NCBI GenBank assembly: GCA_000703065.1
Contig: JNLK01000001.1
Span: 930,001 to 994,000 of the forward strand
Source: Lachnospiraceae bacterium AC2029
Lineage (GTDB): Bacteria; Bacillota; Clostridia; Lachnospirales; Lachnospiraceae
Length of the DNA: 64,000 nt
Direction: 5' to 3'
Shown here: positions 14,148-64,000 of the stretch, in pieces
Layout: every line of letters starts with the position of its first letter
Numbering within the stretch: the stretch's first letter is position 1
Position numbers and translations under genes: made by a program
Notes under the pieces: generated by a model
What the model was told of the DNA's origin: nothing
The model's database searches: none
Seen by the model: the letters and a program-made list of their open reading frames with translations, nothing else

Positions 14148-14203
14148 TGTTCCCATCCTTTCTTGCTTGTCTCTCATCTTCACCTTATCAAAGAAACACT
14201 CTA

Positions 14204-14248
14204 CTGTAATAATCCGCTGTAAACAATGCTGTCAAAATACTACTGTAA
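14204..14248 (-). repeat. Four CTGTAA-type direct repeats over the promoter of the giant Ig-like gene
   Basis: On the plus strand CTGTAA occurs at 14204, 14217 and 14243, and CTGTCAA at 14229, a spacing of 12-14 nt. The boxes cover the -10 and -35 region and could bind a regulator repeatedly along one face of the helix. The regulator is not identified. Confidence 0.5.
14206..14235 (-). promoter_or_regulatory. Promoter of the giant Ig-like surface protein
   Basis: Minus strand carries a perfect TTGACA, an 18-nt spacer and TATTAC. This lies about 60 nt upstream of the chosen start in the longest gap within the island, so the surface gene can be expressed apart from the kinase genes. Confidence 0.6.
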
Positions 14249-14256
14249 ACTCTCTG

Positions 14257-15129: not shown

Positions 15130-15134
15130 ACCTG

Positions 15135-17252: not shown

Positions 17253-17265
17253 CCTGTTATCCCCG

Positions 17266-18039: not shown

Positions 18040-18040
18040 G

Positions 18041-21178
<3,138 letters not shown>

Positions 21179-22828: not shown

Positions 22829-22879
22829 TTTCTTACTTCCTCCCCTTTATCGTCTCAAAATATTACGTCCTTGATAACC

Positions 22880-47740: not shown

Positions 47741-47966
47741 AACAACCCCTCCATAACTCCCATCGGAACCCCTCGGCGGGCGCATTCCGATGCATACCGA
47801 CTCTACTACGCCCACAATCTACATTGTACCATGAAACCCCGATATACACCACATTTTTCTACCGGAACAGCCCTCGGTGAATCCACATGATACATCCTTT
47901 TTCGGTCAGAAGGCCGACTCTCGGATTCACGGGATGCACCGTTTTTTTCGTAAGAACGGCCTCCCG

Positions 47967-48725
47967 TCAGCAGAAGAACGCGATCAACCAAATCACCAGC
48001 ATATGCAGGGGATAGAAAATGTAGAAGAACCACTTGTGAAATGCGGATTTACTGCCTCTTTCCCCGTTGTACAGATACATCACGGGAACAAACAGGAACA
48101 GCCCTGCCTGCCACAGCTCCCCGTACCAGTTACGGCCTGCGGAAATGCAGAACAGGATGTTCATACAGAGGTATGCCACCGTCACAAAACAGAACCATTT
48201 CACCTTCTGCTTCTGATCATCTCTGAAGCTCAGAAATATCAGGGCGTAGACTCCTCCCACAAGGCCCCAGTCACAGAACATGGCCGCACCGAGAAGCAAT
48301 CCGATCAGGATACAACGGCGGGAAAAGCCCGGTACCATATCATATACGTACAACATAAGGAAGATAAAGAAGAACCCCAGGATCACGTTGAAATCCGGAT
48401 GCAGAAAGGCTTTTCCGATCGTGGACAGCCTCGTCTCCCCCTCCCGGACCTCGCAGCCGTAGTTCATCAGCGCATACGGCACCTGGGAAATGAGTCCGAA
48501 GCAGAGAAGCCTGATTCCATACTTCTTTCGGTTTGAGGTATGTACGTACCCTTCCACCAGAAAGAAACACATAATGGGCGCCGTAAGGCGCCCTATGATC
48601 CGGAAGATCATCCCCGGAAACGGTGCTCCCGCCGAGATGGGAAAGAATACCATCCCGATATGATCGATGACCATGGCGATCACAGCGATATATTTCAGTT
48701 TATTAGCAGATAAGCCTTTTCCCAT
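47967..48725 (-). CDS. TraX family membrane protein
   Basis: A 252-residue protein with about eight membrane helices and the TraX signature near the start (KYIAVIAMVIDHIGMVFF, RIIGRLTAPIMCFFLVEGY). TraX acetylates pilin on F-type plasmids, but chromosomal Firmicutes homologues are common and have no proven role. It ends the right-hand operon, 78 nt after the phosphatase gene. Confidence 0.88.
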   Translation of the reverse strand: MGKGLSANKLKYIAVIAMVIDHIGMVFFPISAGAPFPGMIFRIIGRLTAPIMCFFLVEGYVHTSNRKKYGIRLLCFGLISQVPYALMNYGCEVREGETRLSTIGKAFLHPDFNVILGFFFIFLMLYVYDMVPGFSRRCILIGLLLGAAMFCDWGLVGGVYALIFLSFRDDQKQKVKWFCFVTVAYLCMNILFCISAGRNWYGELWQAGLFLFVPVMYLYNGERGSKSAFHKWFFYIFYPLHMLVIWLIAFFC

Positions 48726-48803
48726 GTCTCGTTATACAGATTCTCCTCATATTATTGCCGCGAACGGTATGCCGGACGGACCTGCCTTCGACGGGATATC
48801 CGA

Positions 48804-50531
48804 CTACACGTCCGCAGCCTTCGGTCCGTGGAAGGTAAAGCTGAGCATCGTCATATCATCATACTGCTCCGCGTCTCCGGCGAAGGCGTCTACATCCGCC
48901 TTGACCATGCGGATGATTTCCTCATCCGTCGCATTCCTGTTCCGGTTCAGAACCTCCAGAAGACGCGCCTCACCGTATCGTTCACCCTCTTTATTCCTGG
49001 CATCCTTGATCCCGTCCGTGTACAGAAATATTCTGTCCCCCGGGCCGATCTTCATCTGATAGGATGACTGCTTGATCCCCGGAAGGAAACAGAGTGGAGG
49101 ACTGTGGATCGTCTTCTCGATCACATAACCCTGTCCGGCGTGAAGGGTCGCGGGATACTCATGTCCCGCGTTCCCCGCATCGATCTCTCCGGTTTCAAGA
49201 TCAATGATCCCCATCCAGACCGTAACGAACATTCCGGTCTCATTCTTCTCGGAAAGCTTATTCATGACATAGGACAGGATTTCAGCGGTACTTCCGCCCA
49301 GATCGGCCCGTGTCTTAATATAGGTCCTGGACATCGCCATGAAGAAAGCGGCGCCCATCCCCTTATCCGAAACATCCGCGATCAGAAATGCCAGATGCGT
49401 CTGATCAACGAGGAAGTAATCATAAAAATCGCCTCCGACCTCCCTGGCCATATCCATGGTCGCATGGACACTGAATTCCGGTCGATTTGCAAGATTCGGA
49501 TCCTCACCCGGCAGGACACTCCTCTGGATCTGTGCCGCCAGAGCGAGCTCCGTCTCGATCCTCTCGCTTTCTCTGGACATCCGTGTGATCTCATGCATAT
49601 TCCGCTCGGTGTCTTCCTCCATCTTGTCCAGAGCCTCCGCCAGCTGAATGATCTCAGCTGAATTTCCGACCCTGTTCACCAGTTCGGTCTCACCCTTCTT
49701 ATTCTCCTCAGCGAAACGTTCTGCCTCCTCCGACATCACCTTGACCGGCCGTACCACACGGACCTTCAGGAAGAGGATCAGAAGGACAGCGATCACCACC
49801 ATGATGCTCAGTGCAGACGCAGTGATACCGATCACATACTTTGTACCGGTGCTGATCACATCTTTAAGGGAGCGGAACAGCGCCAGAAATCCGAAGCACT
49901 GATCCCCTTCCCAGACAGATCTGACCACGCCCACGCAATACTCACCGTCCACCGTCAGATAGATGACCTTGTCCTCGGTATCATCCACTGACTGACCGTA
50001 TACCTGCTGAATGGAATCACTGAGCTGCTGCGGAACCTCATCCACATGATCCCCCAGCTTCTTCTGATCGGCAAAGAGCCCATTCTCACTCCTAAGCTTC
50101 TTTTCATAGGAATAGACGACCCTATACCCCCGGTAGTCCCGGTCCGGAACCCCCAGGATCAGCGCAACCGTATTCTCCTCGTCCGCCGAAACGACTCCGT
50201 CAAGGGCATACATCATAACAAAAAAGTCCGAGATAAGACCCTGCTCCCGCTCCATTCCCTCCTTCAGTTCTTCGCCGTCATACAGCCATTCCATATTCCA
50301 CATTCTGTCGAGGCCGATATCCACATACGCCTGAAAATCCCATGGATGACTGTTGGATCCGGCATAATCTGCGGTTATCCTGGCCGAATTCACATTTTCG
50401 GCATATATAGATTTCATAAATACGCTGTAACCGATCAGAATGATCAGGATGGTAAGAACGGTGATAAAGAATAAGATCCCAATGACGATCTGTACGGACA
50501 GTTTATGAAAAATACTTTTCTTTCGTTTCAT
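48804..50531 (-). CDS. Membrane SpoIIE/RsbU-type PP2C phosphatase with HAMP domain
   Basis: Dephosphorylates a STAS anti-sigma antagonist. Two membrane helices (12-36 and about 235-258) flank an extracellular sensor domain. A HAMP domain and coiled coil follow, then a PPM-type phosphatase (about 350-565) with REVGGDFYDYF, LIADVSDKGMGAAFFMA, GNAGHEYP and the late DDMT. All metal-binding residues seem present. GAGGAG lies before the ATG. With the STAS and RsbW-like genes of this operon it completes a partner switch whose input would come from outside the cell. Confidence 0.95.
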   Translation of the reverse strand: MKRKKSIFHKLSVQIVIGILFFITVLTILIILIGYSVFMKSIYAENVNSARITADYAGSNSHPWDFQAYVDIGLDRMWNMEWLYDGEELKEGMEREQGLISDFFVMMYALDGVVSADEENTVALILGVPDRDYRGYRVVYSYEKKLRSENGLFADQKKLGDHVDEVPQQLSDSIQQVYGQSVDDTEDKVIYLTVDGEYCVGVVRSVWEGDQCFGFLALFRSLKDVISTGTKYVIGITASALSIMVVIAVLLILFLKVRVVRPVKVMSEEAERFAEENKKGETELVNRVGNSAEIIQLAEALDKMEEDTERNMHEITRMSRESERIETELALAAQIQRSVLPGEDPNLANRPEFSVHATMDMAREVGGDFYDYFLVDQTHLAFLIADVSDKGMGAAFFMAMSRTYIKTRADLGGSTAEILSYVMNKLSEKNETGMFVTVWMGIIDLETGEIDAGNAGHEYPATLHAGQGYVIEKTIHSPPLCFLPGIKQSSYQMKIGPGDRIFLYTDGIKDARNKEGERYGEARLLEVLNRNRNATDEEIIRMVKADVDAFAGDAEQYDDMTMLSFTFHGPKAADV

Positions 50532-50562
50532 ATCCCGCTCCTCGTTTTCAAAAACTCCGTAC

Positions 50563-50579
50563 AGATCCCACCGGGATCT
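50563..50579 (-). terminator. Small hairpin between coiled-coil gene and phosphatase gene
   Basis: AGATCCC / GGGATCT 7-bp stem with a 3-nt loop in the 78-nt gap; a T5 run follows 8 nt later on the minus strand. A weak terminator or attenuator at most. Confidence 0.35.
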
Positions 50580-50609
50580 TTTCCATGATTACTGCATAAC
50601 CTCTGTAGC

Positions 50610-52154
50610 TTATTTCTTCGCCACTTCCTTCTTCGGTTTCAAATTCTTCTGCATATCCATACTCGGCTGGCGCAGATTCTTCAGGTTCTCACGACGATTC
50701 CTCTGTTCCATCAGCCGCTTTGCATTCTTTCGGATATACTGTTGCTGGAGCTTCCGGATATCATCCGCCCCAAAACTCTTCCCATTCTTGATTGCCTTCA
50801 TTCCCTCTTCCACGATGGACTGGGTCAGTTCCGACTTCCTGATATTATCCAGATCCTGCTTCGAGGGATTCAGATCCTTGTCCAGCCGGTCAGAGTTCCT
50901 CTTAAAGGAAGCTCCCGGCTTCGGCTTGAAATTCTTCTCCAGGGAATCCATGCGGTTCAGATAAAACAGAGTCTTTACCACAGACTCCTCCAGTACGGCC
51001 TTCAGATTCTGGTTCTTAGCCCCGGCACGGACCATCCGGTCAAAGGTCTCTTCCAGGCTCTGAATCTGTTCATCCTGCTTCTTCCGCATGTCATTCATCT
51101 TTCGCTTGTACTCATCCGCGTACATATTCTGTCGCAGCAACCGTATCTGCTCATGGATCTCCTTTATGGCCAGCGTGCGCTTGATCTCATATGCGGATGC
51201 AGGTTTCTTTCCGGCCTGGACACGCTTTTCGCGGTCAGCCGCCTTCTTCTTCATGTAGGTACTGGTCTCCTTAAGAACTCCCAGCGTCAAGCGTTCATAT
51301 TCCTCCATCTCCGCTTTGGACATGGTGGTACTTCCGCTGACCTTCTTCATGAACTGGTCCAGCTCATACAGAGACTTCTTGACATTGCGAAACTCCCTGG
51401 AAGAAAATGCTCCATGGCGTCCGCCGGTGGTCACCTCTCTGGTAAGGTAACGAAGAGAACGAATGGTATTGGCCTGGCCGCGGAGGAAATCCTCATCCAT
51501 TCCTTCCCGCGCATTTACGGTTCCGGCATACGGATTCGCCTTCGGCTTTTCCTTCTCCGCCGGTTTCTTATTCACCGCCTTCTTCGACCTTTTCCGTTCC
51601 TGCGCTACGGCCTCCTTCTCGGCATCCGCCTGTTTCTTTTCGTTACGTTTATCCGCCGTCCTCCTATCCCCGTCTGCCTGAATGTTCAGATTCTCCTGCT
51701 GACGTCGTTTCTCCTCGGCCCGTTCCAGCTTTTCCAAGATCTCCCGGTCAGCCTCGTCCTCTGGCTCATCTATCTCCTCTTCCTTTTCTTCTTCCTTTTC
51801 TTCTTCCTTTTCTTCTTCCTTCTTCCGTTTCTTTTCCGGCTTCTTCTCCGGTTCCTTCTCCGGCTCCTTCTCCGGCTTCTTCTCAGGCTCCTTCTCCGGC
51901 TTCTTCTCCAGCTCCGGCTTCTTCTCAGGCTCCTTCTCCGGCTCCGGCTTCTTCTCAGGTTCCTTCTCCGGCTTCTTCTCCGGCTCCGGCTTCTTCTCAG
52001 GCTCCTTCTCCGGTTCCTTCTCCGGTTCCGGCCCGTCGGCATTCTTCAGCGGGGGGTGGACCTCAGCATCCTTCTCTTTTGGGTTCTCAACGGCACCAAG
52101 TTCCTCATCCAGATTATCATCAACATTCGGTATATCAAATTTCTTTCTGGGCAT
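50610..52154 (-). CDS. Charged coiled-coil protein with Pro-Glu-Lys repeats (514 aa)
   Basis: No family recognised. Residues about 40-115 are PEKEPEKKPE-type repeats, followed by a Lys/Glu coiled-coil (KEEEKEEEKEEE) and a Lys-rich segment. Residues about 215-470 are predicted helical and look folded (ANTIRSLRYLTREVT, SAYEIKRTLAIKEIHEQIRLLRQ). The tail is basic (KPKKEVAKK). No membrane segment or signal peptide. It lies inside the VirB4/partner-switch operon with GGGAGG before its ATG; it could be a structural or secreted component. Confidence 0.75.
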   Translation of the reverse strand: MPRKKFDIPNVDDNLDEELGAVENPKEKDAEVHPPLKNADGPEPEKEPEKEPEKKPEPEKKPEKEPEKKPEPEKEPEKKPELEKKPEKEPEKKPEKEPEKEPEKKPEKKRKKEEEKEEEKEEEKEEEIDEPEDEADREILEKLERAEEKRRQQENLNIQADGDRRTADKRNEKKQADAEKEAVAQERKRSKKAVNKKPAEKEKPKANPYAGTVNAREGMDEDFLRGQANTIRSLRYLTREVTTGGRHGAFSSREFRNVKKSLYELDQFMKKVSGSTTMSKAEMEEYERLTLGVLKETSTYMKKKAADREKRVQAGKKPASAYEIKRTLAIKEIHEQIRLLRQNMYADEYKRKMNDMRKKQDEQIQSLEETFDRMVRAGAKNQNLKAVLEESVVKTLFYLNRMDSLEKNFKPKPGASFKRNSDRLDKDLNPSKQDLDNIRKSELTQSIVEEGMKAIKNGKSFGADDIRKLQQQYIRKNAKRLMEQRNRRENLKNLRQPSMDMQKNLKPKKEVAKK

Positions 52155-52167
52155 ACACGTTACCTCC

Positions 52168-52638
52168 CTACTTTCGGATTCCTTCTCTCATGCAAAGAAC
52201 ATTCTGTCCGTTCTGATATTTATAACTCACTTCATCCATGACCTTCTTGACCAGATGGATCCCGAAGCCGCCAACCTTCTCCAGGAACATCTTTCCCGAA
52301 GTATCCACCTCCGGCCGAGCCAGCGGATCAAAAGGAACCCCGGAATCGGTAAACTGCAGGAAGACCGATCCCTGCTCGATCCAGCAGCGGATCTCTGCCC
52401 GCCCGATATTCGGTGTATATGCATAGGAACATATATTGATGAAAATCTCCTCCACCACCAGACGAACATCATTCATGATCTTCATGGTGCAGTGGCTGGC
52501 CCGAAGGATCTTTATGACATAATCCGTCACATCATCCAGAGCATCCTTTACCGCATCCACGATAATGGCACCATCCTCTTCTTTATGAAAATAGTTCACC
52601 GTGTCAGGCCTTCCACCCAGGTGAAAAATCTCTTCCAT
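52168..52638 (-). CDS. RsbW-like ATP-binding anti-sigma/anti-antagonist kinase
   Basis: A 156-residue GHKL-fold protein. N-box VVEEIFINICSYAY, G1 FTDSGVPFDP and G2 GGFGIHLVKKVMDE with ATP-binding residues. In partner switches this kinase phosphorylates a STAS protein and holds a target such as a sigma factor. AAGGAG lies 8 nt before the ATG. No sigma-factor gene is visible nearby, so its target may be one of the large proteins of this operon (inference). Confidence 0.93.
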   Translation of the reverse strand: MEEIFHLGGRPDTVNYFHKEEDGAIIVDAVKDALDDVTDYVIKILRASHCTMKIMNDVRLVVEEIFINICSYAYTPNIGRAEIRCWIEQGSVFLQFTDSGVPFDPLARPEVDTSGKMFLEKVGGFGIHLVKKVMDEVSYKYQNGQNVLCMREGIRK

Positions 52639-52643
52639 GTCGA

Positions 52644-53381
52644 TTACTCCTTCGGTTGACTACTCTTACTCCTGTTCACTATTTCTTTGGCATCCCTGTT
52701 TGCCTGCTGTTTCTCGGCATGCTTTCTTGCCTCTTCCTCTTCCCGTCGTCTTTGCTGTTCCTCTTCCTGTCGTCTTTGAAGCTCCTCTTCCAGTCTTGCT
52801 TCAAGGATCTCCGGGGGGATTTTTCTTTCCCTGCGGCTCCTCTTTCTCTGCTTTCTCCGTTCCTTCCGGGAAAGCTTATCCTTTTTGTCCTTCTTATCCT
52901 TCCTATCATCCTTCGGCTTATCGATCTTAACCAGGAAGGATGCCGTATACTTCTCAAACTTACGTCTTGTCAGAAACAGTACCAGTCCTGCCGTCAGGCA
53001 CCGCGCCGTATATCCGGACATCTGAAGCTGTCCTTCATCATTCTCATAGAAAACCATTACCACGGGATAGAAAACATAGGTCTTGATCAGGCACCCCTTG
53101 ACGTTGTCCCTGGAAAGGATCCGGATCTCTCTTCCCATATTTCCGAACACCTTCCCCACATCATACACGGATTGGGTATTATTGCGTCCTGAGTAGTAGA
53201 TCCTGTTCCTTCTGGATACACCGAGAAAACGGAGCTTATTGGCTCCGTCCGCCGGCCCCCAGGCTCCGCTGACATGGTCAACTGCAACCAGCTTTCCCTC
53301 GGGATCACGGATCACATGTCCGAGCAGCACATGATAGGCCTCCATCAATATGGGATTATTCTTGCTTCTTGCTGTCAGCAC
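52644..53381 (-). CDS. Unknown protein with folded N-terminal half and Lys/Arg/Glu coiled-coil tail
   Basis: A 245-residue protein that I do not recognise. Residues about 10-150 are beta-rich with mixed strands (AVDHVSGAWG, NRIYYSGRNNTQSVYDVGKV, IKTYVFYPVVMVFY) and no clear membrane helix. From about 150 the tail is extremely charged (KKDKKDKLSRKERRKQRKRS, then RRQEEEQQRRREEEE). A GTG start is used, with AAGGAG 6 nt upstream. Only 5 nt separate it from the RsbW-like gene. Likely a scaffold or membrane-associated part of the apparatus. Confidence 0.75.
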   Translation of the reverse strand: MLTARSKNNPILMEAYHVLLGHVIRDPEGKLVAVDHVSGAWGPADGANKLRFLGVSRRNRIYYSGRNNTQSVYDVGKVFGNMGREIRILSRDNVKGCLIKTYVFYPVVMVFYENDEGQLQMSGYTARCLTAGLVLFLTRRKFEKYTASFLVKIDKPKDDRKDKKDKKDKLSRKERRKQRKRSRRERKIPPEILEARLEEELQRRQEEEQQRRREEEEARKHAEKQQANRDAKEIVNRSKSSQPKE

Positions 53382-53398
53382 GTCCGGCTCCTTACTAC

Positions 53399-54430
53399 CT
53401 ACTCGCCCCTGATATCGGGTTCTTTTCCTTCGGTGATCCTTATCCTTCCGTCACTGTATACCGTGACATCAACGAATTCCGTCACTCCCAGGCTCCGGCT
53501 GTTTGCCACAAGCACGGTCCTGATGCTTCCGTCCTCCGACTTGGAGGAGCATCCCCTGTACTTATCCAGAAGTGCCTGCAGTTCAGTGGATTCTCCGATC
53601 TCCTTTACCGTCTCCGTAGTTTTGGCTTCCGTGCTTTCCGTACTGTCCTTACTTTCCGTTGCCTCCGTACCTGTCGAGGTATCTACCTCGGAAAAGTATT
53701 CATACATAACACCGTTGATCTCGGTAGTTGCCCTAACTACTTCCCGTTCTCTTGCTTCCTCATTGACCTCAAGCTCTCCACCGCCGGGGCTTACCGCTTC
53801 CGGGATCATTTCAATGGCGAGCTGTTCTTTTCCCTCTTCATTTGCCATGTCGTTTACCGACACCCGATTATCAGGATCCAGGAAGATCCAGTCATTCTGT
53901 CCTTTCAGAAATGTGATCTCGGCCTTTCCTTCGCCGGTATTTGTGAGCAGATAGGGATAATCTGTCTTTTCCCCTCCGATCTCACTTCCGTAGACCAGCT
54001 CCGCCGCCTGATCACAGGTCACTGCCAGGTCTTCGGCATCCGCCTTGGTATCTACAATAACATTGATATAAATCAGCGCCACCTCACAGGAAACTCCTGC
54101 CACCTCACCGGAACGCTTCAGAGTCACACGGGTGACACCCTGACTCTTCGGAGAAAGCACAAATTTAGCCGTTCCCTGCTTTTCCTTCCCTTTCTTGGAA
54201 ATTTCCACAACGGATCCGTTCTCCGCCACGGCACTCCACTCAAGGCCCAAGGACTCTCTTCCATCCGGCGTAAGGATCAGGTCCTCCCCGTCATAACGCC
54301 CCCCTACCGGATAAGAAGTCCCCTCCAGCAAAGTGAAGTCAGGCTTCTTATCCCGGGTAAGGATCAGGATCAGGACGACGATTGCCATGATAACAAGTAT
54401 AGGAATGATGGTCAGTAGTTTACGTTTCAT
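53399..54430 (-). CDS. Membrane-anchored extracellular protein (343 aa)
   Basis: One N-terminal membrane helix (about 5-25, basic start), the rest outside. The beta-rich body (KKGKEKQGTAKFVLSPKSQG, VTRVTLKRSGEVAGVSCEVA) suggests an Ig-like fold; then comes a Thr/Glu-rich linker (STESTEAKTTETV) and a terminal domain. No family recognised. It lies 20 nt after the giant exported protein gene, probably anchoring or assembling it. Confidence 0.75.
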   Translation of the reverse strand: MKRKLLTIIPILVIMAIVVLILILTRDKKPDFTLLEGTSYPVGGRYDGEDLILTPDGRESLGLEWSAVAENGSVVEISKKGKEKQGTAKFVLSPKSQGVTRVTLKRSGEVAGVSCEVALIYINVIVDTKADAEDLAVTCDQAAELVYGSEIGGEKTDYPYLLTNTGEGKAEITFLKGQNDWIFLDPDNRVSVNDMANEEGKEQLAIEMIPEAVSPGGGELEVNEEAREREVVRATTEINGVMYEYFSEVDTSTGTEATESKDSTESTEAKTTETVKEIGESTELQALLDKYRGCSSKSEDGSIRTVLVANSRSLGVTEFVDVTVYSDGRIRITEGKEPDIRGE

Positions 54431-54450
54431 TCTCTTCCTCTTCCCTTTGG

Positions 54451-57400
54451 TTACGGGGTCGTTTCATCAGTGTTCTCCGATGCGGGGGTTCCCTCGTCAG
54501 GAGTGGTCCCCCCACCGGCATCCTCACCTCCCGATCCGGAATCACCGGAATCACCCGGAGCATCCTGTTCGCTTGTGTCTTCTGTCGGATCACTCTCGAC
54601 AGACACATAAATGGTATGCTTTGTGTCCGGATCTCCGACCGGTGTGATCTCGATACGATACTGAACCACATTTCCGGTGGTATTCTCGGGAATGGTATAA
54701 CTGAACATACTCTTGGAATCAGATACGGAAGTCATAGCTTCATCTGATCCGCCTTCGTTGTTCACACGGTATACGAAAATGTCCGCTCCTGTGGAGTTGG
54801 TCACCTTCGTGGTTACTTTGATCTCGTCATTGCTCTTCGCCGAAACGATCGCCGTATTATTTGTTACCGGGATTGCCGCTGCTCCGTTCAGAGCATACTG
54901 TGTCTCCAGCGTGATCGCTTCGCTTTCCACGGTGATCATGATCTGATCCACAAGCGTCGGTTCATCCACAGGAGATATCTCGATCTTGTAAACGACCAGA
55001 CTGTCTGTCAGATTCTGAGGTACCGTGAAGCTGAAGCTTCTGTTTGCATCCGTCACCGTAAGATTTCCGGCCGTGATATCCTCTCCGGCTTCGCCTACCA
55101 TACGGTACAGACGTGCCTTGAAGGTTGACGATCCGGCACCGACTCCACGTACGGTCACAGTTCCACCGATTATGTCTCCTCCCTTCGCGGACAGCTGCTT
55201 AAGATGGTCCACCACCTGTCCCTGCATGAGAGAGTTCTTCGTTACATAGGTATTCAGGATGGGCGTTGCAAGCCGCAGGATCGCTCCGTTGGAAAGGCCC
55301 TGGAAGGTCTGATCCACTGCCTTCGGAACGGTATTCGTACCGAATCCGGCATCATAGTCCACGTGGGATATGGTCCACGCCGCACCTCTTAGCTTCGTCA
55401 GATTCTCCACAAACTGAGGCGTGAAGATCCAGCTGTCTCCGGTTCCGTCCTGCATCTGCTGAACCAGTGTATCCACCGATACGGAAGCACCGTTCACCGG
55501 TTCCCCTGTCGACGGCGAGTTGATGGTCATGGATGCATTGTAAGGAACAAGCTCTATGGACTGAACACTGAGATCCGCTCCCATTTCCGGAAGGAAGAAC
55601 CTTACGGTCTGAGGCGTCGGGGGATCACCCGGAGTAAATGCCTTCGCTCCTCCCACAATGTACTTCGTTATATCGTCATACCACATAATGCGCTGCATTC
55701 CCGTGAAATCAGTATAGGTCACACGCATACGTACCGCGGCATCCTCCGAATTATCAATGGCCTTTGCCGCTTCGGTAGTGGTAAATGTAAGGTCGACCGG
55801 CGTCACACTGTTTTCGCCGTACATACTCTTCGATGTGGACTTATGCGGGATCACACGGTCACTGAGAGTGTAGCCGTCGGCAATGGAAGTATACAGTCGG
55901 AGTGAACGCGCGGTAGCAACATTGCCTCCCGTGACCACATCCTCTCTTTCGTCCACATGATAAACCGCACCTGCGGAAGCGGATATATTACCGGACAGAT
56001 TTCCGTACGCAGCGATCTTATAGCCTGTGATCCTTCGAACATACGGGATATCGAACTTCAATTCAGCCGTAAGGCCCTCATAGATCGTGCTGTATCCCAG
56101 ATCGGTCAGATATACATAGGGTGAGGAATACTCCTTGGCACCTCCATCTATAGATGACGTATAGGTAAATGCCACCGCAATATCGTTGTTCACCTCCTGA
56201 AGCGTCTGAGGCTTCGTGCTGGTTCCGAATAGCAGGTAGATTGACTCCTCCGTATCATCTAAGTAAATATTTCCGCCCGAGCCCTCTACCTTCAAGCCGT
56301 TCTTCGCGGACATGCCGTCGAAAATGAATTGCGTATTGGAAATGACCACACCGCCCCTGACATGTTGGACGATCGCATGATCAAAGCCGGTGGAGGAAGC
56401 CGCTCGGATCGTCAGCTTCTCCGGACTGACCATATTCGGCGTTTCCAGACCCGTCGCATAGTAGAACATATTTCCTGCTCCGTCCGTAGCCGCCTTCAGC
56501 GTACATGCCGCCGCCATAGTCTGGGAGAACGGGATCGAATACTTCAGATTGATACTTGCGGTCATAAATTCCGAGCTCAGATTGTCATACAGCTTCTTGG
56601 GAGTCTCGTCCGACGTATAATATCCCCCGCGGTTTCCCTTCGGATACAGATAAACATTTACCGTATCATCCGAGGACTCCGGAATTCGCGATACCGGTGT
56701 TGCCCACTGCTCCGAGCTCCAGACAATCTTGTTCTCCGTGAACCGGATAGTCTCCATATCCCGGATCTGTCCCATGGGGAAGAAGGTTGTGAACACCTTA
56801 TCATCCTCGTTGACACAGAGCTTCTTGGTCTTCAGATTCCGGTAATACTCTTCATTTGCCGTCAGTTGGAGCGGGCCGTCCTCTATGATCTGGGATACGG
56901 TCACCTTACCGATCCGGAGATATGCTCCTTCATTATTCTTCGTCTGACCCGTCAGGGTAATGGACTTCAGACAGTACAGATCCGAAATGGCAGGCAGGAT
57001 AAAGCGGTCTGTCTTACCGGCTCGGAACATCCACTCAGGATCGGAGATCATTCCCTGTCCCTTGGTGGGGACCTTCTGCTCGCGGACATTGGTTGCCGCC
57101 TCCATGGAGGCAGCCGACTTGTCCATATATGCCGCCAGCAGCTGTACCACGTCAAAATCAATGGTCTTAACCGCATTGTCGCTTGCCTGGATATACTGAA
57201 CCTCTGCTGTAACCGAGCCCTCAAACTGGTGATAATTACCTTCCCAGGCAAGAGTGGAAAGCTCACACAGAAGCTTCACGGATCTCTCATGGTAGGTTAC
57301 CTCATAGGATCTTGCGATCTCCTTGGCGCTTCTTGCCTGAAGGCCGCGGCTGGAGCCCTTCTCAGCTTCATCCCTGTAATCCACATCGATCCAGCCCACA

Positions 57401-60303
57401 TTTTCGATCACATGTGAGATATAGGTTCCGCCGGTGGTCCTTTCAGTAACTGTGATCCTGTCGATATTCAGCTTATCAAACGGAGTGGCGTCTGTAGCAA
57501 GATCCTCGGGAAGGATCCGTACTTCCTGTAATTCTCCGTAATCCCGGTTTGTGGAGATTGCAAAAGTCTCCGCCCGTCCTGAACGGAACGCATCACCGGC
57601 CAGCTGCTGATTTGCCTGCACGTAAGCACTGTGTCCGTTGGCAAATATCAGCTGGAAATAGAAGTAGTTTACGGAGCCCGCATCACCGTTACCTGTTTCA
57701 ATCTCGGAATCCTGAGCCACCTGAACTACCACATCATAAGTCTTCTTTTTCTTGAAGAATCCCCAGTCCACCTGTGTATCTTCGTATGACATCTTGTAAC
57801 GGACCTTGGAATAATCCTTGTCCTGTACATTCGTTGCCGTACCATTGCCGAAATTGATCTGCAGTGTGGTATCCGGCGTAAAGAGCTGTCCCCCGTTCAG
57901 ACGGTATCCGTCAGTGTTCCTCTGATCCTCATCCACGTAGACCGGGTTTCCGTCACTGTCATAGATCAGATTTCCGTTTTCATCCACCAGCTGCTTTCGC
58001 TGTTCCTTGGTGGTTCCGTCACCGTTCACCTTTTCTCCGTCACCGTTCACGATTGTCGGATCCACCTTCATCAGGTTGAAGATTTCGACCAGTACCATAT
58101 CCCGGGTAACATAGTAATTGGAGTCCGTAATGCTCGGAGGCGCAAGGTAACTCTGTCGTCTGGAACAGGAATCGATGTAGGCGATGGTGATGTTCTTCAT
58201 CTCCCACTCATCATTTCCAACAAGACCGACCTCCGCTCCCGTGAACTCCTGTACATCTCTGGCTTCAACCAGGAAGGAGACGGAATTGCCGGTCTGCAAT
58301 CCGTATTTTGTGACATAAGAGGATCCGTCCGAAGCCGGCCAGGGCCCCAGGAAGGTCTCTGCCTCGGTCTTCACACTGTAGGTCTGTGTATGTCCTGTTT
58401 CCCCATCCTGGTCCACATAGTCAAGCCGGAAGGTGACATCACCTGTGGTTCCTGCCCTTGGCTTGTCGGTGGTGGAGACGGTGATCAGATACTGATCCAT
58501 TCCGCTGTAGACAGGCTTTGCACTGATCGGACTTCCCGAGGTATAGGTCCGCAGGAAGAAGGAATATGTGCCGTTTGCGGTGATGGGCTGTCCTCCGCTG
58601 GTTGTAGTGGTAAAATACAGCAGGGGCACTTCATTTTCAAATACATAGTCTACCGTGGCGCCCTGGAGACGGACTCCCATATTATCCACTCCGCCGTTGA
58701 TATATGCCATACATCCGCCCTTATGAAGGGAAATGCTGGCAAATCTCAGCCCGTCCTTTGCGGTAGCTGCAAGATTTGCATTCATTTTCTTTGTAGCCTT
58801 CGAAACGGAGATCCCATTTTCCTCAAGGGTGGTTCTTGCCGCTTCTCCGACCGAGAGCTTCACCTGTCCGAGGATGGTTTCAAATTCGGGAAGGTAACCC
58901 TGGAATCCGATGACGTCTCCCTTCTGGGCAAATCCCATCGCGGTTCCGTCCGGATTCGACTTTGAAGCCATGATATAACTGCTGAGCACCATCGGAAGTG
59001 AAGCGTTCCTGGTCCAGCCATGGGTATCCCGATACTGGAACTCCAGAAGGATATCCTCTACGATACCGTTGTCATCCGACAGGGTGACAGCGGAGGAGTT
59101 CAGGAATGCCGAAACGCCGGCATCCTTCAGATCCGTAATTTCAAAGCGGAAGGAATAGAGGGAATTCGCACTGGCAAAATCCCTGCTCTTTACGGTGCCC
59201 TCATAGTTCTGAATCGTGAAATAGGAAGAATCCGGTCCACCGATACAGAAGACCGAATCGATCTTCCTGGTGGAAAGAGTCAGGGTTCCGGGATTCATCT
59301 TGATCATCTCCGCGATCATATTTCCCTGGAAATCAAGGAAATGTTTTCCGGAAACCAGACCATATTCCTCATATCCCTTGTAGGCTTCCATCTTATATAC
59401 GGCGATACCCTGTACGGTCCACTGTCCGTAGGCCAGATATACATCGATGCTGTCTACGGTCTTGATCTCCTTCTCCGTACGGAACACGAACTCCTGAGTG
59501 CTCCAGGAGTCCAGATGGCCCTCCTTCTGGGCATCCTCCTGGTAGTTCAGGGAAGCAAGCGCCTCCATTCCGAAGGGCTTGTCAATATTCTTGCCGTTCG
59601 CATAATACTTCAGCAGCGCAGCACTCCTGCTGTTTGCATCGATTCCCGGGAAGACGAACTGAGTCCGTGCATTTCCCTTTGTATCCGTATAGCGGATCGC
59701 AAAATACTGAACCGTATCACCGGCGGAAACTCCGGTAGCAACTGAAAGGACATAGGTATTTGTCGGCGCCTTGATGGCAGCCCGGTCCTTCCATGCATCC
59801 ATCCCCTTAAACGGGGCAAACTGGGGCTTGGCATCTGCGGTCACGTTATAGACAGGTGCCTCCGCCTCCGCGTCCGTCTCCTCTGCAGTCAGCGTTGTCT
59901 TTGTATTACCGATCACCGTTCCGTCCGAATTACCGGTGGCGGTCCCATTTGTATTACCGGTGGTCGTCCCATTTGTATTACCGGTGGTCGTCCCGTTCGA
60001 ATTACCGGTGGTCGTCCCGTCCGGATTTCCGATCAGGGTGCCGTTCGGATTTCCCTCCGGATTATTGGTCAGAGTGCCATCCGGATTTCCGATCAGGGTT
60101 CCATCCGGGTTGACGATCAGAGTGCCGTCCGGATCAATCCCCTGTTCCCCTGACGTGCCGGTAGAAGATCCGTCCTGAGAATCGAAGGGGTCGTCACTCG
60201 GAGCGGCATAAGCCTTTCCGCTCATCATAAAGAGATAAGAGAAGGAAAATGCCACTACAAGCAATATCGCGATTATTCTTTTGTATTTTTCAAATCTCGT
60301 CAT
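54451..60303 (-). CDS. Giant secreted surface protein (1950 aa)
   Basis: Signal peptide at 1-34 with likely cut at AYA-AP. Residues about 50-125 are an 8-residue repeat (TTGNSNG and NPDGTLIG types). The long middle is beta-strand rich, without catalytic motifs that I recognise. The last 250 residues hold two similar Ig-like domains (SFSFTVPQNLTDSLVVYKIEI and MFSYTIPENTTGNVVQYRIEI). The end is an acidic Pro/Gly/Thr tail without LPXTG or membrane helix, so it is not wall-anchored by sortase. An extended -10 promoter precedes it. Confidence 0.85.
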   Translation of the reverse strand: MTRFEKYKRIIAILLVVAFSFSYLFMMSGKAYAAPSDDPFDSQDGSSTGTSGEQGIDPDGTLIVNPDGTLIGNPDGTLTNNPEGNPNGTLIGNPDGTTTGNSNGTTTGNTNGTTTGNTNGTATGNSDGTVIGNTKTTLTAEETDAEAEAPVYNVTADAKPQFAPFKGMDAWKDRAAIKAPTNTYVLSVATGVSAGDTVQYFAIRYTDTKGNARTQFVFPGIDANSRSAALLKYYANGKNIDKPFGMEALASLNYQEDAQKEGHLDSWSTQEFVFRTEKEIKTVDSIDVYLAYGQWTVQGIAVYKMEAYKGYEEYGLVSGKHFLDFQGNMIAEMIKMNPGTLTLSTRKIDSVFCIGGPDSSYFTIQNYEGTVKSRDFASANSLYSFRFEITDLKDAGVSAFLNSSAVTLSDDNGIVEDILLEFQYRDTHGWTRNASLPMVLSSYIMASKSNPDGTAMGFAQKGDVIGFQGYLPEFETILGQVKLSVGEAARTTLEENGISVSKATKKMNANLAATAKDGLRFASISLHKGGCMAYINGGVDNMGVRLQGATVDYVFENEVPLLYFTTTTSGGQPITANGTYSFFLRTYTSGSPISAKPVYSGMDQYLITVSTTDKPRAGTTGDVTFRLDYVDQDGETGHTQTYSVKTEAETFLGPWPASDGSSYVTKYGLQTGNSVSFLVEARDVQEFTGAEVGLVGNDEWEMKNITIAYIDSCSRRQSYLAPPSITDSNYYVTRDMVLVEIFNLMKVDPTIVNGDGEKVNGDGTTKEQRKQLVDENGNLIYDSDGNPVYVDEDQRNTDGYRLNGGQLFTPDTTLQINFGNGTATNVQDKDYSKVRYKMSYEDTQVDWGFFKKKKTYDVVVQVAQDSEIETGNGDAGSVNYFYFQLIFANGHSAYVQANQQLAGDAFRSGRAETFAISTNRDYGELQEVRILPEDLATDATPFDKLNIDRITVTERTTGGTYISHVIENVGWIDVDYRDEAEKGSSRGLQARSAKEIARSYEVTYHERSVKLLCELSTLAWEGNYHQFEGSVTAEVQYIQASDNAVKTIDFDVVQLLAAYMDKSAASMEAATNVREQKVPTKGQGMISDPEWMFRAGKTDRFILPAISDLYCLKSITLTGQTKNNEGAYLRIGKVTVSQIIEDGPLQLTANEEYYRNLKTKKLCVNEDDKVFTTFFPMGQIRDMETIRFTENKIVWSSEQWATPVSRIPESSDDTVNVYLYPKGNRGGYYTSDETPKKLYDNLSSEFMTASINLKYSIPFSQTMAAACTLKAATDGAGNMFYYATGLETPNMVSPEKLTIRAASSTGFDHAIVQHVRGGVVISNTQFIFDGMSAKNGLKVEGSGGNIYLDDTEESIYLLFGTSTKPQTLQEVNNDIAVAFTYTSSIDGGAKEYSSPYVYLTDLGYSTIYEGLTAELKFDIPYVRRITGYKIAAYGNLSGNISASAGAVYHVDEREDVVTGGNVATARSLRLYTSIADGYTLSDRVIPHKSTSKSMYGENSVTPVDLTFTTTEAAKAIDNSEDAAVRMRVTYTDFTGMQRIMWYDDITKYIVGGAKAFTPGDPPTPQTVRFFLPEMGADLSVQSIELVPYNASMTINSPSTGEPVNGASVSVDTLVQQMQDGTGDSWIFTPQFVENLTKLRGAAWTISHVDYDAGFGTNTVPKAVDQTFQGLSNGAILRLATPILNTYVTKNSLMQGQVVDHLKQLSAKGGDIIGGTVTVRGVGAGSSTFKARLYRMVGEAGEDITAGNLTVTDANRSFSFTVPQNLTDSLVVYKIEISPVDEPTLVDQIMITVESEAITLETQYALNGAAAIPVTNNTAIVSAKSNDEIKVTTKVTNSTGADIFVYRVNNEGGSDEAMTSVSDSKSMFSYTIPENTTGNVVQYRIEITPVGDPDTKHTIYVSVESDPTEDTSEQDAPGDSGDSGSGGEDAGGGTTPDEGTPASENTDETTP
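59915..60120 (-). repeat. 24/30-bp coding repeats, TTGNxNG / NPDGTLIG units
   Basis: About ten short units after the signal peptide of the giant secreted protein. Asn/Gly/Thr-rich and likely flexible; near identity suggests copy-number change. Confidence 0.85.
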
Positions 60304-60337
60304 ACAGTATCCCTCATTATCGGCATTATCTGCTGAA

Positions 60338-60346
60338 AGTATAGCA
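60338..60346 (-). promoter_or_regulatory. Extended -10 promoter of the giant secreted protein gene
   Basis: Minus strand TGC-TATACT (TGn extension present), about 35 nt before the start. No clear -35, as often with extended -10 promoters. It sits in the 91-nt gap after the STAS gene. Confidence 0.6.
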
Positions 60347-60394
60347 TTTTACAGACAACAAAAGCGCAACATTCCCCTTCTGACGCATCAGGTT

Positions 60395-60694
60395 TCATCG
60401 TATGTTCAACAGTCCCGCCAGGCCGGTCATTTCAAAGACCTCCATGACATTATCATTCACATTTGTGACCATCAGTTTTCCTCCTTTTTTGTAAAGAAGG
60501 ATATAGAGATTGCGTATCGTGCGAAGTCCGGCGCTGGAGATATACTCCAGCTCCTGCATATTCAGGGTAATATTCGTAAACCTGGCTGCCAGCTGAGCAA
60601 AAAGTGCATCCGCATCCCTTGCAGTTCTGGTATCCAGATCTCCCGAGAGAAGGAGTTCTCCTTCTTTCCCCCGATTGATCAACTTCACATCCAT
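60395..60694 (-). CDS. STAS-domain anti-sigma factor antagonist (RsbV-like)
   Basis: A 99-residue single STAS domain. The phosphorylation-site region EYISSAGLRTIRNLY has the conserved Ser of RsbV/SpoIIAA. In this family the RsbW kinase phosphorylates that Ser and the RsbU phosphatase removes the phosphate; both are encoded in the same gene group. It begins 6 nt after the VirB4-like gene and its Shine-Dalgarno overlaps the end of that gene. Confidence 0.95.
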   Translation of the reverse strand: MDVKLINRGKEGELLLSGDLDTRTARDADALFAQLAARFTNITLNMQELEYISSAGLRTIRNLYILLYKKGGKLMVTNVNDNVMEVFEMTGLAGLLNIR

Positions 60695-60700
60695 TGCTTC

Positions 60701-63700
60701 TTACTCTCCCTTTTTCTTCTTCCGATCACGAATAAAGCCGGACAGTTCATCCAGAGAGATCTCCATTACATCTTCTCCGGATTCCTCCATACGCTCTTCC
60801 AGACTCATATCTGCATACTCCTCTGCCGCTTCAGCCAGAAGCTCAGCGAACAGGAACGGCGTATGCTCATAATCGTCATCCTCTTCATCCTCATCAGAAT
60901 CATAACCAAGGCCCAGCTCTTCAAGATCAGCATCCAGATCAATGTCATCCAGATCTGCATCGTCCAGCTCATAGTCATCATCTGTCAGGTCAAGATCAGC
61001 GTCGTAATCCATATCCTCATCCTCGTCATCCAAATCCGCATCATAATCGAAATCATCATCCGAATACTCTTCGTCATCAGCTGAATCCAGGTCATAATCC
61101 TCGTCCAGATCCTCATCAGTCAGGCCAAGATCTGCATCCAGGTCAACATCATAGCCCTCATCCAGATCTGCATCATAATCAAAATCGTCATCCGAGAACT
61201 CTTTACCTGCATCCGGATCCGCATCGTAATCCTCATCCAGATCCAGATCATCGTCCAATCCAAGATCCTCATCCGTCAGATCCGGTGTCTCACCCAGGTC
61301 GGCATCATAGTCCTCATCCAGATCTGCATCATAGTCCTCATCCAGATCCGCATCATAGTCCTCATCCAGATCTGCATCATAATCGAAATCGTCATCAGCG
61401 AACTCTTCACCGGCATCCTGCTCTTCAGCGTAGTCCTCATCCAGGCCCAGATCCTCCTCGCCAAGGTCTGCATCGTAGTCCTCGTCAATATCCAGGTCTT
61501 CGTCCAGGATATCATCGTAGTCCTCATCCAGGTCCAGATCCTTGCCCGGATCATAGTCCTCATCCGAACCCGGAGTCTTCTTTGCAGCCGGCTGATTCAT
61601 CAGGCCGCTGAGATCCGTACCGGAGCCAAGGCCCATTCCGATGGAGATCCATTTCAGCTTCTCCATCAGTTCCTGCTCCATCTCCGCCCGAATTGACCGC
61701 CGGAGTTCTTCCAGTTTTGTATCAATATCAACATCCGCATCCGAAGCAGCACTTCTTGCTGCAGCAGTGCGGCTCTTTGCTCTCTTCTTCTCGCGTCTTG
61801 CTTCTGCCCTTTCTTCTTCCTCCTCGGCAGCCTGTCTCTCTGCCTCTTCTGCCCTTCTGCGTTCTTCCGCAGCCTCGGCATCGGCAGTGGCACCGTCCAC
61901 CTCTTCCAGCGTGATCCCGCCGAAGGACATCGATCCGCCTCCGATTTTTGTCACAGGCTCCGGTTCCGGGATCTTTGCTTCGGGTTCTCCGGCCATTTCC
62001 TCGGTAAGCTGTATGCCGCCGAAGCGAAGCGTTGCCATTTCATAATCTCTCTGATTCACAACTGCTTCCGCCTCGATCAATCTGTCCATGGCGTTTTTGC
62101 GTTCTTTGCTGCCGTCTCTTTCGGAAACTTCTTTCTCTTCGCTTCCCGCCTCACCGGCTTCGGCTTCAGACGTCAGATCGATTTCTTCCCCGAAGGAGAT
62201 CTCCGAGAATTTCAGCGTTCCCTTCTGTTCCTGAAGTCCGGGATGCTCAGCCTCATACTCGATACGCTCATCGTAGTTTGCATCATGGGAATCACGGCTG
62301 TCGGATATGTAATCCTCCCATGCTTCCTCTCCTTCTTCTCCGGAGAAGTAGTAATTCTCATGCTCTCCGTTCTCGAACATGTCAACGAAAAGTTCCGGAA
62401 CATCAATATGGAAGGAGGTACGTGAGGAGGGACTCATGATGGCAAATGCCTGTCCGCGCTTCGCATTCAGGATGTCCTCCTGCTCCTGCTCATTGATTCC
62501 TCCGGCCTTCTCATACAGACGGCAGAGATCATCCATATCATTCGGTGCAAGACCGAATACAAAGCTGTACTGGCACGCATTGATGATCGCCGTGGATTTC
62601 CGCGCGATCTCCTCACTGCCCACGAAGTCCTTGATATTCTGGGTGATAACGATCTGCATACCATTATACTTACGGATACGCTTTGCCAGCTGGAACATGA
62701 AGTCCAGTGCAACCGGGAACTTGGTATCGATGAATACATGCGCCTCATCGATAACTACAACAACCTTTCGGTTCAGGTTATATTTCAGGTTATAATCACG
62801 GTTCTTGATGATCTCATTATCCACATACTTCAGAACCAGAAGCATCTGCGCATTCGCTATGGTCGAGTTCCGGTTGGCCAGAAGGGACTGGAAATTGAAT
62901 ACGGAGAAGTTCTCATCCGTTGTGATGGTGGAAGGGCCGTTCCAGATGTTCGCATTTCGTCCGCCGGTGGAGAACTTGGAAATATAATTCACCAGAGAAC
63001 GGAGCAGCTGACGCAGATAGTCGTTGTTCGTTCTCTCGAACTCTGCCAGGACTACGTCATATAGGTCATCAAAGATCGGATAATCCTCGGCATGCAGTCT
63101 GGAGAGATCTGTCTCAGCCGTGATACCGAAGTTCAGATACACACGTTCTACCAGTGAGTTCAGGTACTCGAGAGCGTCCCTGTCGATATCCGGAAGGATC
63201 TGACGGAAGAACTCCTCCAGGAACTGCAGGTGTGTGGCAAAGCTTCCCGCAGGTCCGCCGGTTTCTCCTGCCTCGTCATCGTCCAGTGCGGTGATGATGT
63301 GGAAGGGATTCAGACGTCCGTAGGTCGCATTTCCTACATTGATGATCTTACCGTGCAGGTTATGTGCCAGCTCCGAATACTCGTTCTCCGGGTCCAGGAT
63401 AAAGATTTTGGAATCCTCGGAAGCCAGATTCAGAAGCAGGGACTTGGTGGTATAGGATTTACCGGAACCGGATTTTCCTACGATAACCATGTTGGAGTTG
63501 ACACGCTCGGAATCTCTGCGGAAGAAATTGATAAATACCGGTACTCCGTCAGAGGAGCCCAGCTTCACGCCGCCTTCATCCGAAACATGCGCAAAGATCC
63601 ACGGGTACATTCCCGCGATCGTATTTGTAGGAATACCTCTGGCTTCCTTCAGCATCGGGTCATACGGAGATACCTGGGATCCGATAAAGCTCTGAATCTG

Positions 63701-64000
63701 CAGAAAGTCCATGCCGTTCAGCTTCATGCCCGCCTCGGCCCAGGTGTGGCGGAGCGTCTTCTTCAGGTCCGGCACCATGGGCATCAGAGTCTTGAACCCG
63801 TCATTCAACATCGGATCTTCTTTCGTGGCCATCGCATCATATGCCGTGACGTAGATATTCACGGACATCAGCGCCTCATTTTCCTGCTGCAGCGTAACCA
63901 GAAGGGAAGACAGGGTCTCGATATGCTCCTGCAGCTCCAGTCTTCTGGAGTCCACACCTGTGGCATTATAGCGTGCACGCAGTTCTGCCAGAGAACGATC
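60701..64000 (-). CDS. VirB4-type secretion ATPase with Asp-rich tail (5' end outside window)
   Basis: ATPase of the VirB4/TraC group that powers type IV secretion or conjugation. The frame is open to the edge, with 15 codons before a GTG that is an internal valine. An N-terminal region with coiled-coil and NIYVTAYD is VirB4-like. The ATPase has Walker A GKSGSGKS (about residue 175 from the edge), ILDPENEYS, Walker B VVVVIDEAHVF, and QNIKDFVGS. Three short similar motifs follow the ATPase (FSEISFGEE, FGGIQLTEE, FGGITLEEV), then an acidic tail of about 230 residues of D-Y-D-A-D-L-type repeats and a basic end. No other secretion gene is visible here; they may lie beyond the edge. Confidence 0.9.
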   Translation of the reverse strand, partial: DRSLAELRARYNATGVDSRRLELQEHIETLSSLLVTLQQENEALMSVNIYVTAYDAMATKEDPMLNDGFKTLMPMVPDLKKTLRHTWAEAGMKLNGMDFLQIQSFIGSQVSPYDPMLKEARGIPTNTIAGMYPWIFAHVSDEGGVKLGSSDGVPVFINFFRRDSERVNSNMVIVGKSGSGKSYTTKSLLLNLASEDSKIFILDPENEYSELAHNLHGKIINVGNATYGRLNPFHIITALDDDEAGETGGPAGSFATHLQFLEEFFRQILPDIDRDALEYLNSLVERVYLNFGITAETDLSRLHAEDYPIFDDLYDVVLAEFERTNNDYLRQLLRSLVNYISKFSTGGRNANIWNGPSTITTDENFSVFNFQSLLANRNSTIANAQMLLVLKYVDNEIIKNRDYNLKYNLNRKVVVVIDEAHVFIDTKFPVALDFMFQLAKRIRKYNGMQIVITQNIKDFVGSEEIARKSTAIINACQYSFVFGLAPNDMDDLCRLYEKAGGINEQEQEDILNAKRGQAFAIMSPSSRTSFHIDVPELFVDMFENGEHENYYFSGEEGEEAWEDYISDSRDSHDANYDERIEYEAEHPGLQEQKGTLKFSEISFGEEIDLTSEAEAGEAGSEEKEVSERDGSKERKNAMDRLIEAEAVVNQRDYEMATLRFGGIQLTEEMAGEPEAKIPEPEPVTKIGGGSMSFGGITLEEVDGATADAEAAEERRRAEEAERQAAEEEEERAEARREKKRAKSRTAAARSAASDADVDIDTKLEELRRSIRAEMEQELMEKLKWISIGMGLGSGTDLSGLMNQPAAKKTPGSDEDYDPGKDLDLDEDYDDILDEDLDIDEDYDADLGEEDLGLDEDYAEEQDAGEEFADDDFDYDADLDEDYDADLDEDYDADLDEDYDADLGETPDLTDEDLGLDDDLDLDEDYDADPDAGKEFSDDDFDYDADLDEGYDVDLDADLGLTDEDLDEDYDLDSADDEEYSDDDFDYDADLDDEDEDMDYDADLDLTDDDYELDDADLDDIDLDADLEELGLGYDSDEDEEDDDYEHTPFLFAELLAEAAEEYADMSLEERMEESGEDVMEISLDELSGFIRDRKKKKGE
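60868..61566 (-). repeat. Asp-rich coding repeat tract, DYDADLDE units
   Basis: About 700 bp of DYDADLDE/DEDLGLDE repeats in the 3' part of the VirB4-like gene. The units are near-identical in DNA. Such a tail could bind calcium or basic partners. Confidence 0.9.

Follow-up and report, generated by a model that had tools for sequence, protein, structure and literature searches.

A chromosomal type IV secretion array with a STAS/RsbW/SpoIIE partner switch in Lachnospiraceae, a candidate protein exporter

The textbook role of RsbV and RsbW is the control of sigma factors. The core of Gram-positive type IV secretion systems (T4SSs) consists of VirB1, VirB3, VirB4, VirB6, VirB8 and VirD4, according to a 2025 review, in which the T4SS of Streptococcus suis 89K is presented as apparently the first member of the superfamily that translocates effectors in a Gram-positive species (PMC12857230). 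In Bordetella, BtrU, BtrV and BtrW act on type III secretion, and BtrU and BtrW are assumed to govern secretion (PMC7498569, PMC8256260). We found nothing in the open-access literature that links a T4SS to a partner switch, whether through STAS or SpoIIE (subscription journals lay mostly outside the search). Here we describe a locus that joins the two. It was noticed in a stretch of 64,000 nucleotides of Lachnospiraceae bacterium AC2029 (the window; bases 930001 to 994000 of the 3.86-Mb single-contig chromosome, JNLK01000001.1), and it encodes VirB4, a VirB6-like protein, VirD4, a pilin, exported proteins and the full STAS/RsbW/SpoIIE set in one recurring array. Judging from sequence, the array probably represents a chromosomal, relaxase-less T4SS of Lachnospiraceae that exports proteins, in which a SpoIIE/RsbW switch would act on the machine through the STAS protein as its output.

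Composition and conservation of the array

The array occupies about 37 kb of the minus strand (C1:1015282 to 978804, or to 977967 if TraX is counted); the window contains its downstream part, and about 21 kb run beyond the window edge. In the order of transcription it encodes three large charged proteins of 560, 731 and 1569 amino acids (aa), a response regulator, a 238-aa membrane protein and a histidine kinase, followed by the T4SS pilin, a 777-aa exported protein, VirD4, a 329-aa exported protein, the VirB6-like protein and VirB4, and finally by the STAS protein, the 1950-aa exported protein, the 343-aa anchored protein, a 245-aa protein, RsbW, a 514-aa charged protein, SpoIIE and TraX. The intergenic gaps measure 0-155 nt across the whole array and 5-91 nt between VirB4 and SpoIIE. 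The part inside the window is as follows.

60701..64000, minus strand: VirB4-type ATPase, the C-terminal 1099 aa of a 1536-aa gene whose start lies outside, at 65311 in window numbering
60395..60694, minus strand: STAS protein of the RsbV/SpoIIAA type, 99 aa, with the motif YISSAGLR, 6 nt from VirB4
54451..60303, minus strand: giant exported protein, 1950 aa, with a signal peptide (by eye) and a PLAT domain
53399..54430, minus strand: exported protein, 343 aa, with an N-terminal membrane anchor (by eye)
52644..53381, minus strand: soluble conserved protein, 245 aa, with a basic coiled tail; the family recurs in related loci
52168..52638, minus strand: RsbW-type serine kinase, 156 aa, with the N-box EEIFINI
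50610..52154, minus strand: highly charged protein, 514 aa, with a basic C-terminus; candidate substrate
48804..50531, minus strand: SpoIIE/RsbU-type membrane phosphatase, 575 aa, with an extracytoplasmic part (by eye) and the metal-site motifs
47967..48725, minus strand: TraX-family membrane protein, 252 aa (Pfam TraX, 106 bits)

Every gene that the first-pass annotation had named in this operon is present on the minus strand, and the identities were checked by Pfam. The VirB4-like ATPase was correctly recognised there, although the window edge cuts the gene and the full protein has 1536 aa. The TraX-family gene at 47967-48725, unmentioned in that annotation, lies in the same stretch; its membership in the array is doubtful, since the gene maps of related loci show no TraX relative.

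The VirB4 fragment in the window matches P-loop_TraG of Pfam with 57.8 bits, and the extended scan gave 57.2 bits (cut-off 25.8); against VirB4_plasma, the ATPase family of mycoplasma integrative and conjugative elements (ICEs), VirB4 scores 543.6 bits, short of the cut-off of 590. It had been suggested that the sequence past position 64000 be searched for the remaining T4SS genes. This extension brought in VirD4 (T4SS-DNA_transf, 184.9 bits, cut-off 20.1; also above the cut-off of the conjugal CD1115 VirD4 family), the VirB6-like protein (MMCAP2_0566, 126.6 bits, cut-off 90), the pilin (T4SS_pilin, 41.4 bits, cut-off 26.6) and a VirB4 start that is weakly PrgI-like over residues 8-84 (14.3 bits against a cut-off of 27), but no sequence match to VirB8. 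Both the VirB6-like protein and the pilin thus exceed the cut-offs of mycoplasma ICE families. The 1950-aa protein carries a PLAT domain above cut-off (29.5 bits) and a CBM_56 match of 24.7 bits, below its cut-off of 27; no Pfam family was found at E ≤ 0.1 for the 343-, 245- and 514-aa proteins. Comparison with solved structures returned only weak matches for the giant protein, the family of the 560-aa charged protein (A1), the 245-aa family and the 329-aa exported family, and a scan for promoters and terminators gave no signal above that of shuffled sequences.

The same gene order recurs in related genomes, as the comparison proposed in the first-pass annotation established, and chance neighbourhood is therefore ruled out as an explanation. 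The 14 best foreign matches of VirB4 are 54-83% identical and come from the genus or, with 54%, from G046, which belongs to the 24 genomes searched from other families of the order, so that the locus occurs in one other family. At E ≤ 1e-150 VirD4 was detected in 19 of the 397 family genomes and in 17 of the 334 genera, the own genome included, and at E ≤ 1e-100 in 28 of 61 genomes of the genus; a scan of genome_contigs gave two loci only. Among the genus loci compared the gene order is kept and the flanks differ between species. Identity to the own proteins in these loci is 79-84% for VirD4 and 73-84% for STAS, 60-71% for VirB4 over the main matches (56% in one partial match), 45-68% for the VirB6-like protein and 47-62% for the pilin, 39-50% for the giant protein, 47-52% for RsbW and about 25-46% for the charged families. 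In a distant group (G106, G420, G174, G220, G171 and G046) VirB4 lacks the acidic tail, and all members except G046 carry two VirB6-like genes. The G046 locus also encodes an M15 peptidase and, at L049:2598-3644, a protein of 348 aa whose residues 252-300 match a T4SS pilin domain.

Two other readings were tried and rejected. As regards a phage or plasmid source, all such VirD4 relatives are below 60% identity, with 23-34% in the plasmid rows listed (12 of 3212) and 23-27% in the phage rows (8 of 39). As regards an anti-phage system, the matches were of the ATPase type only (mad8 up to 57.5 bits, HerA, DndH), apart from one of 17.7 bits.

The partner switch and its linkage to the machine

The three switch proteins are well supported by profile matches, with Pfam scores of 49 bits for STAS, 77 for the RsbW-type HATPase_c_2 and 146 for SpoIIE; the STAS protein also reaches 63.9 bits with ant_ant_sig of NCBIfam (cut-off 53.45). 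As far as sequence can tell, the switch motifs are intact. All 22 STAS proteins that were aligned retain the second serine of the [SC]SA-type motif, and we take this serine in YISSAGLR to be the phosphate acceptor, as in SpoIIAA/RsbV. The N-box pattern occurs in 13 of 14 RsbW proteins, the exception, G106, reading DELFGNI, and among the metal-site motifs of SpoIIE, GGDF[FY]D, DVS[DG]KG and DDxT are found in 15 of 15 proteins and YTDG in 13 of 15. SpoIIE had been annotated as having a HAMP-linked outside sensor. The SpoIIE assignment stood, but HAMP gave no Pfam match at E ≤ 0.1, and all that points to a HAMP-like linker are partial, below-cut-off NCBIfam matches to sensor kinases over the membrane/linker part.

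The linkage of the switch to the machine was evaluated in 31 mapped loci, namely the own locus, 12 from other genomes of the genus (15 of the 28 genus genomes carrying VirD4 remained unmapped), 17 from further genomes of the family and that of G046, together with 22 other VirB4/VirD4 loci as controls, two of them from the own genome. Family-derived profiles were run against loci and controls alike, in all six frames. STAS was detected in 25 of the 31 related loci, RsbW in 17 and SpoIIE in 14, and each of them in 0 of 22 controls. For STAS the difference corresponds to Fisher P = 1.6e-9, a value that treats non-independent loci as independent; moreover, the comparison is biased toward the related loci, on which the profiles were trained, and the control stretches were shorter (4.8-20 kb versus 3-138 kb). 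An independent Pfam search for HATPase_c_2, which did not cover six of the control genomes, placed none on control contigs among the matches listed. The six loci without STAS (G390, G387, G391, G401, G022 and G010) are short contigs or are broken at a contig end. All three genes stand on the strand of the machine in 13 of the 31 loci, and in G023 SpoIIE is on the opposite strand. The nearest STAS gene is never more than 8.4 kb from the machine, and in 17 of 25 loci no more than 39 nt separate STAS from the VirB4 or VirD4 frame. STAS is the most constant part of the switch, found even where RsbW and SpoIIE were not. These counts agree with the earlier assignment of the switch to the machine, and the adjacency of the genes and the constancy of STAS suggest that the switch may gate the ATPase or the giant protein directly.

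VirB4 ends (window 60701-61900) in acidic DYDADLDED-like repeats followed by a tail of about 60 aa, which is conserved within the genus, divergent in other genera and missing in the distant group. Going by its position behind the acidic repeat and its conservation, this tail is a candidate docking site.

In the distant group, small proteins of 83-126 aa are encoded next to VirB4 (L090:16813-17064, with counterparts in G420, G174, G220 and G046). Most of them begin like MAYFDSPKNRAIWE, and these small 'MAYFDSPKNR' proteins resemble the VirB4 tail by eye only. Some loci contain additional switch parts. In G014 a second SpoIIE and a second STAS, with a 209-aa protein between them, lie just upstream of the T4SS array (L042:11677-14177); two SpoIIE genes occur in G213, and two STAS genes in G106 and in G135. 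In G420 an RsbW-type domain (C3:35685-36068) is located inside a 535-aa SpoIIE frame, apparently a fusion of phosphatase and kinase.

Protein export and the alternatives

The view that the array is a secretion or surface system rather than a conjugative one, put forward in the first-pass annotation, agrees with the absence of any relaxase of PF03432, PF01076 or PF02486 and of any tyrosine integrase near the array in the own genome. The relaxase search covered these three families, and the recombinase search covered tyrosine integrases. PF03432 was found in 24 of 38 genomes, which cover 28 of the 31 mapped loci (G390, G391 and G401 left out), and never near the T4SS; it shares a contig with the switch-bearing T4SS only in the single-contig genomes G000 (about 357 kb away) and G106 (about 340 kb). 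PF01076 occurred in 6 of 20 genomes, none near the T4SS, and PF02486 in 0 of 20. The own genome encodes three PF03432 relaxases, all elsewhere, the nearest at 357 kb, and the nearest of its 13 PF00589 tyrosine integrase matches, at 1212451, is about 197 kb from the array. The ordinary conjugative VirB4 loci of the same genome, at 503185 and 2282794, each have a relaxase close by, at a distance of 7.7 and 8.6 kb (positions 511906 and 2273786), and the latter locus also has an integrase at 2296867.

A conjugative element is not favoured because no relaxase or integrase was found nearby. The array could still be a conjugation machine if its relaxase and origin of transfer (oriT) lay elsewhere or belonged to another family, the charged proteins then being DNA-processing or escort proteins of a polyvalent-like kind. 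The scores of VirD4, the VirB6-like protein and the pilin against conjugal and ICE families would fit this, as would the three relaxases elsewhere in the own genome and the report in PMC5512222 that polyvalent proteins are delivered along with element DNA. We nevertheless regard it as quite unlikely: besides the missing relaxases and integrase, no plasmid record reaches 60% identity to VirD4, the charged proteins scanned (1094 aa only of the 1569-aa protein) contain no Pfam domain above cut-off, and the flanks look housekeeping-like by eye, with hisS, ftsZ, trp and atp genes among them.

If the array exports proteins, the large charged proteins are the candidate cargo. The 560-aa family A1 is present in 28 of 61 genus genomes, of which 26 also have VirD4; 31 genomes have neither, and four are discordant, with VirD4 only in G464 and G007 and A1 only in G011 (70% complete) and G030 (which has a VirB4 fragment), in tables compared by hand. 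This co-occurrence (Fisher P = 1e-12, the genomes not being independent) is also expected from the shared locus, in which A1 often sits. In 30 members of four charged families, two of them doubtful but kept, and not independent as homologues, the last 30 residues have a net charge of +4.3, as compared to -0.2 in 84 background proteins, and a hydrophobic fraction of 0.17 as compared to 0.33. In 27 large soluble proteins without assignment near the core, a set that includes some plain housekeeping genes, the hydrophobic fraction of the tail was lower as well (0.23 versus 0.32, P = 2e-4). A basic C-terminal signal shared by all large proteins of the loci was also considered and was unconfirmed in this wider set. 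The charged-protein genes of G014, G020, G023 and G027 have as neighbours a gene for a protein of 440-455 aa that starts PAS-like, one for a small protein resembling acetyltransferases, or both (by eye).

Several observations weigh against a protein-exporting machine that is itself the target of the switch. In the wider set of 27 proteins the tail charge did not differ significantly (+0.7 versus -0.1, P = 0.23), and the predicted structure of the 245-aa protein was unusable (predicted local distance difference test, pLDDT, 52.9). No VirB8-type subunit (sought by sequence search only) and no VirB1-type wall hydrolase was matched by Pfam among the own-array proteins scanned, and no VirB6-like gene was detected on the gene map of G046. 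The ancestor of the system probably moved DNA, since among named proteins those of mycoplasma ICEs are closest to the VirB6-like protein and the pilin. In G180, G174 and G220, stretches of 40-60 kb showed neither RsbW nor SpoIIE, and the trio is therefore not obligatory. In addition, G220 carries two sigma genes at 4.3 and 6.8 kb from VirD4, an ECF-like (extracytoplasmic function) gene lies just upstream of the G387 locus (by eye), and VirB4 of G389 and VirD4 of G010 are each split into two frames, possibly through assembly errors.

The sigma genes bear on a further alternative, in which the switch acts on transcription: the T4SS operon would be driven by an unlinked sigma factor under the hold of RsbW, and co-expression would be the only reason for STAS to stand beside VirB4. 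This would be the textbook use of RsbV and RsbW, and the own genome offers ten Sigma70_r2 matches. However, the nearest of these, at 625518 and 1582968, are at least 352 kb from the array, in keeping with the earlier remark that no sigma factor is seen with the switch, and the frames of eight of the ten measure 168-221 aa, an ECF-like length. In 29 genomes G220 was the only one, among the matches listed, with a sigma gene within 60 kb of the T4SS; its two genes, behind ftsZ, are SigE/SigG-like sporulation genes by eye, and the locus has STAS but no RsbW was found in it. The array moreover has its own two-component system, which offers ordinary transcriptional control too. Taken together, we find a sigma factor as the target fairly unlikely.

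The split frames could also be signs of a decaying integrative element kept by chance, with the regulators and charged proteins as unrelated neighbours, and the patchy occurrence of VirD4 in genus and family and the varying flanks point the same way. Against such decay stand the PPM and N-box motifs kept across genera, the identities of VirD4 and STAS in the genus loci, and the linkage of STAS in 25 of 31 loci, extending into a second family; we consider decay highly improbable.

Upstream of the array are genes for a carbohydrate-binding protein and a group II intron protein, and then hisS (by eye); the intron reverse transcriptase/maturase is at C1:1016954-1018408 (L005:6954-8408), outside the window, with the 5' end of the array on one side and hisS on the other. 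Inside the window, a separate minus-strand cluster at 8832-24034 encodes a PP2C phosphatase, a Ser/Thr kinase that has TPR repeats, a YceG-like protein, two FHA proteins, one of which matches DUF6382 above cut-off, and a protein of 1783 aa with Ig-like domains. The frame at 46556-47815 encodes a membrane protein of 419 aa whose long repeat tail is rich in Q, G and Y.

Proposed mechanism and comparison with known systems

In the protein-export reading, which we prefer, VirD4 would take large charged proteins from the cytosol, whose C-terminal tails are polar and often basic, and pass them to the VirB4/VirB6 channel, and the exported proteins and the giant PLAT protein would form a wall-spanning or surface part. 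The membrane phosphatase SpoIIE would sense an outside signal and dephosphorylate STAS, which RsbW would rephosphorylate. We infer that the output of the switch is STAS and that its target is a part of the machine, most likely an ATPase, so that no sigma factor would be released; expression would be set by the two-component pair of the array, its histidine kinase and response regulator. A more specific version is tentative, and we hold it to be somewhat unlikely as a whole: a phospho-gated protein-delivery T4SS of monoderm gut bacteria, in which STAS would bind VirB4 or VirD4, perhaps at the VirB4 tail, and the outside signal would open or close the delivery of giant charged effectors into neighbours.

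The locus is relevant to the debated delivery of proteins by T4SSs in Gram-positive bacteria, and the family provides a testable set that combines a VirD4 and a sensor switch with a list of candidate cargo, no relaxase having been found in the vicinity. Partner switching could thereby gain a secretion machine, not a sigma factor, as its target. Its action on secretion is known from the type III system of Bordetella, and a phospho-gated T4SS is not described in the open-access papers found.

The array resembles Gram-positive conjugative T4SSs in VirB4, the VirB6-like protein, the pilin and VirD4 (kin: Mbov_0395/0396/0397 and MMCAP2_0565/0566 of mycoplasma ICEs, and CD1115 for VirD4); it differs from them in that no relaxase or integrase was found nearby and that a partner switch and giant exported and charged proteins are present. 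The 89K system of S. suis is likewise a Gram-positive T4SS held to export protein, but it includes VirB1 and VirB8 and is part of a pathogenicity island, and a partner switch is not mentioned in the accessible part of the review (PMC12857230). In SypA of Vibrio fischeri and RbaV of Rhodobacter capsulatus, an unphosphorylated STAS protein is likewise the output on an unknown target, although the accessible text mentions no secretion ATPase beside them (PMC8256260). BtrU, BtrV and BtrW of Bordetella likewise tie a SpoIIE-type phosphatase, a STAS protein and a serine kinase to a secretion machine; that machine, however, is of type III and belongs to a Gram-negative host, and the ECF sigma factor BtrS is encoded in the same cluster (PMC7498569, PMC8256260).

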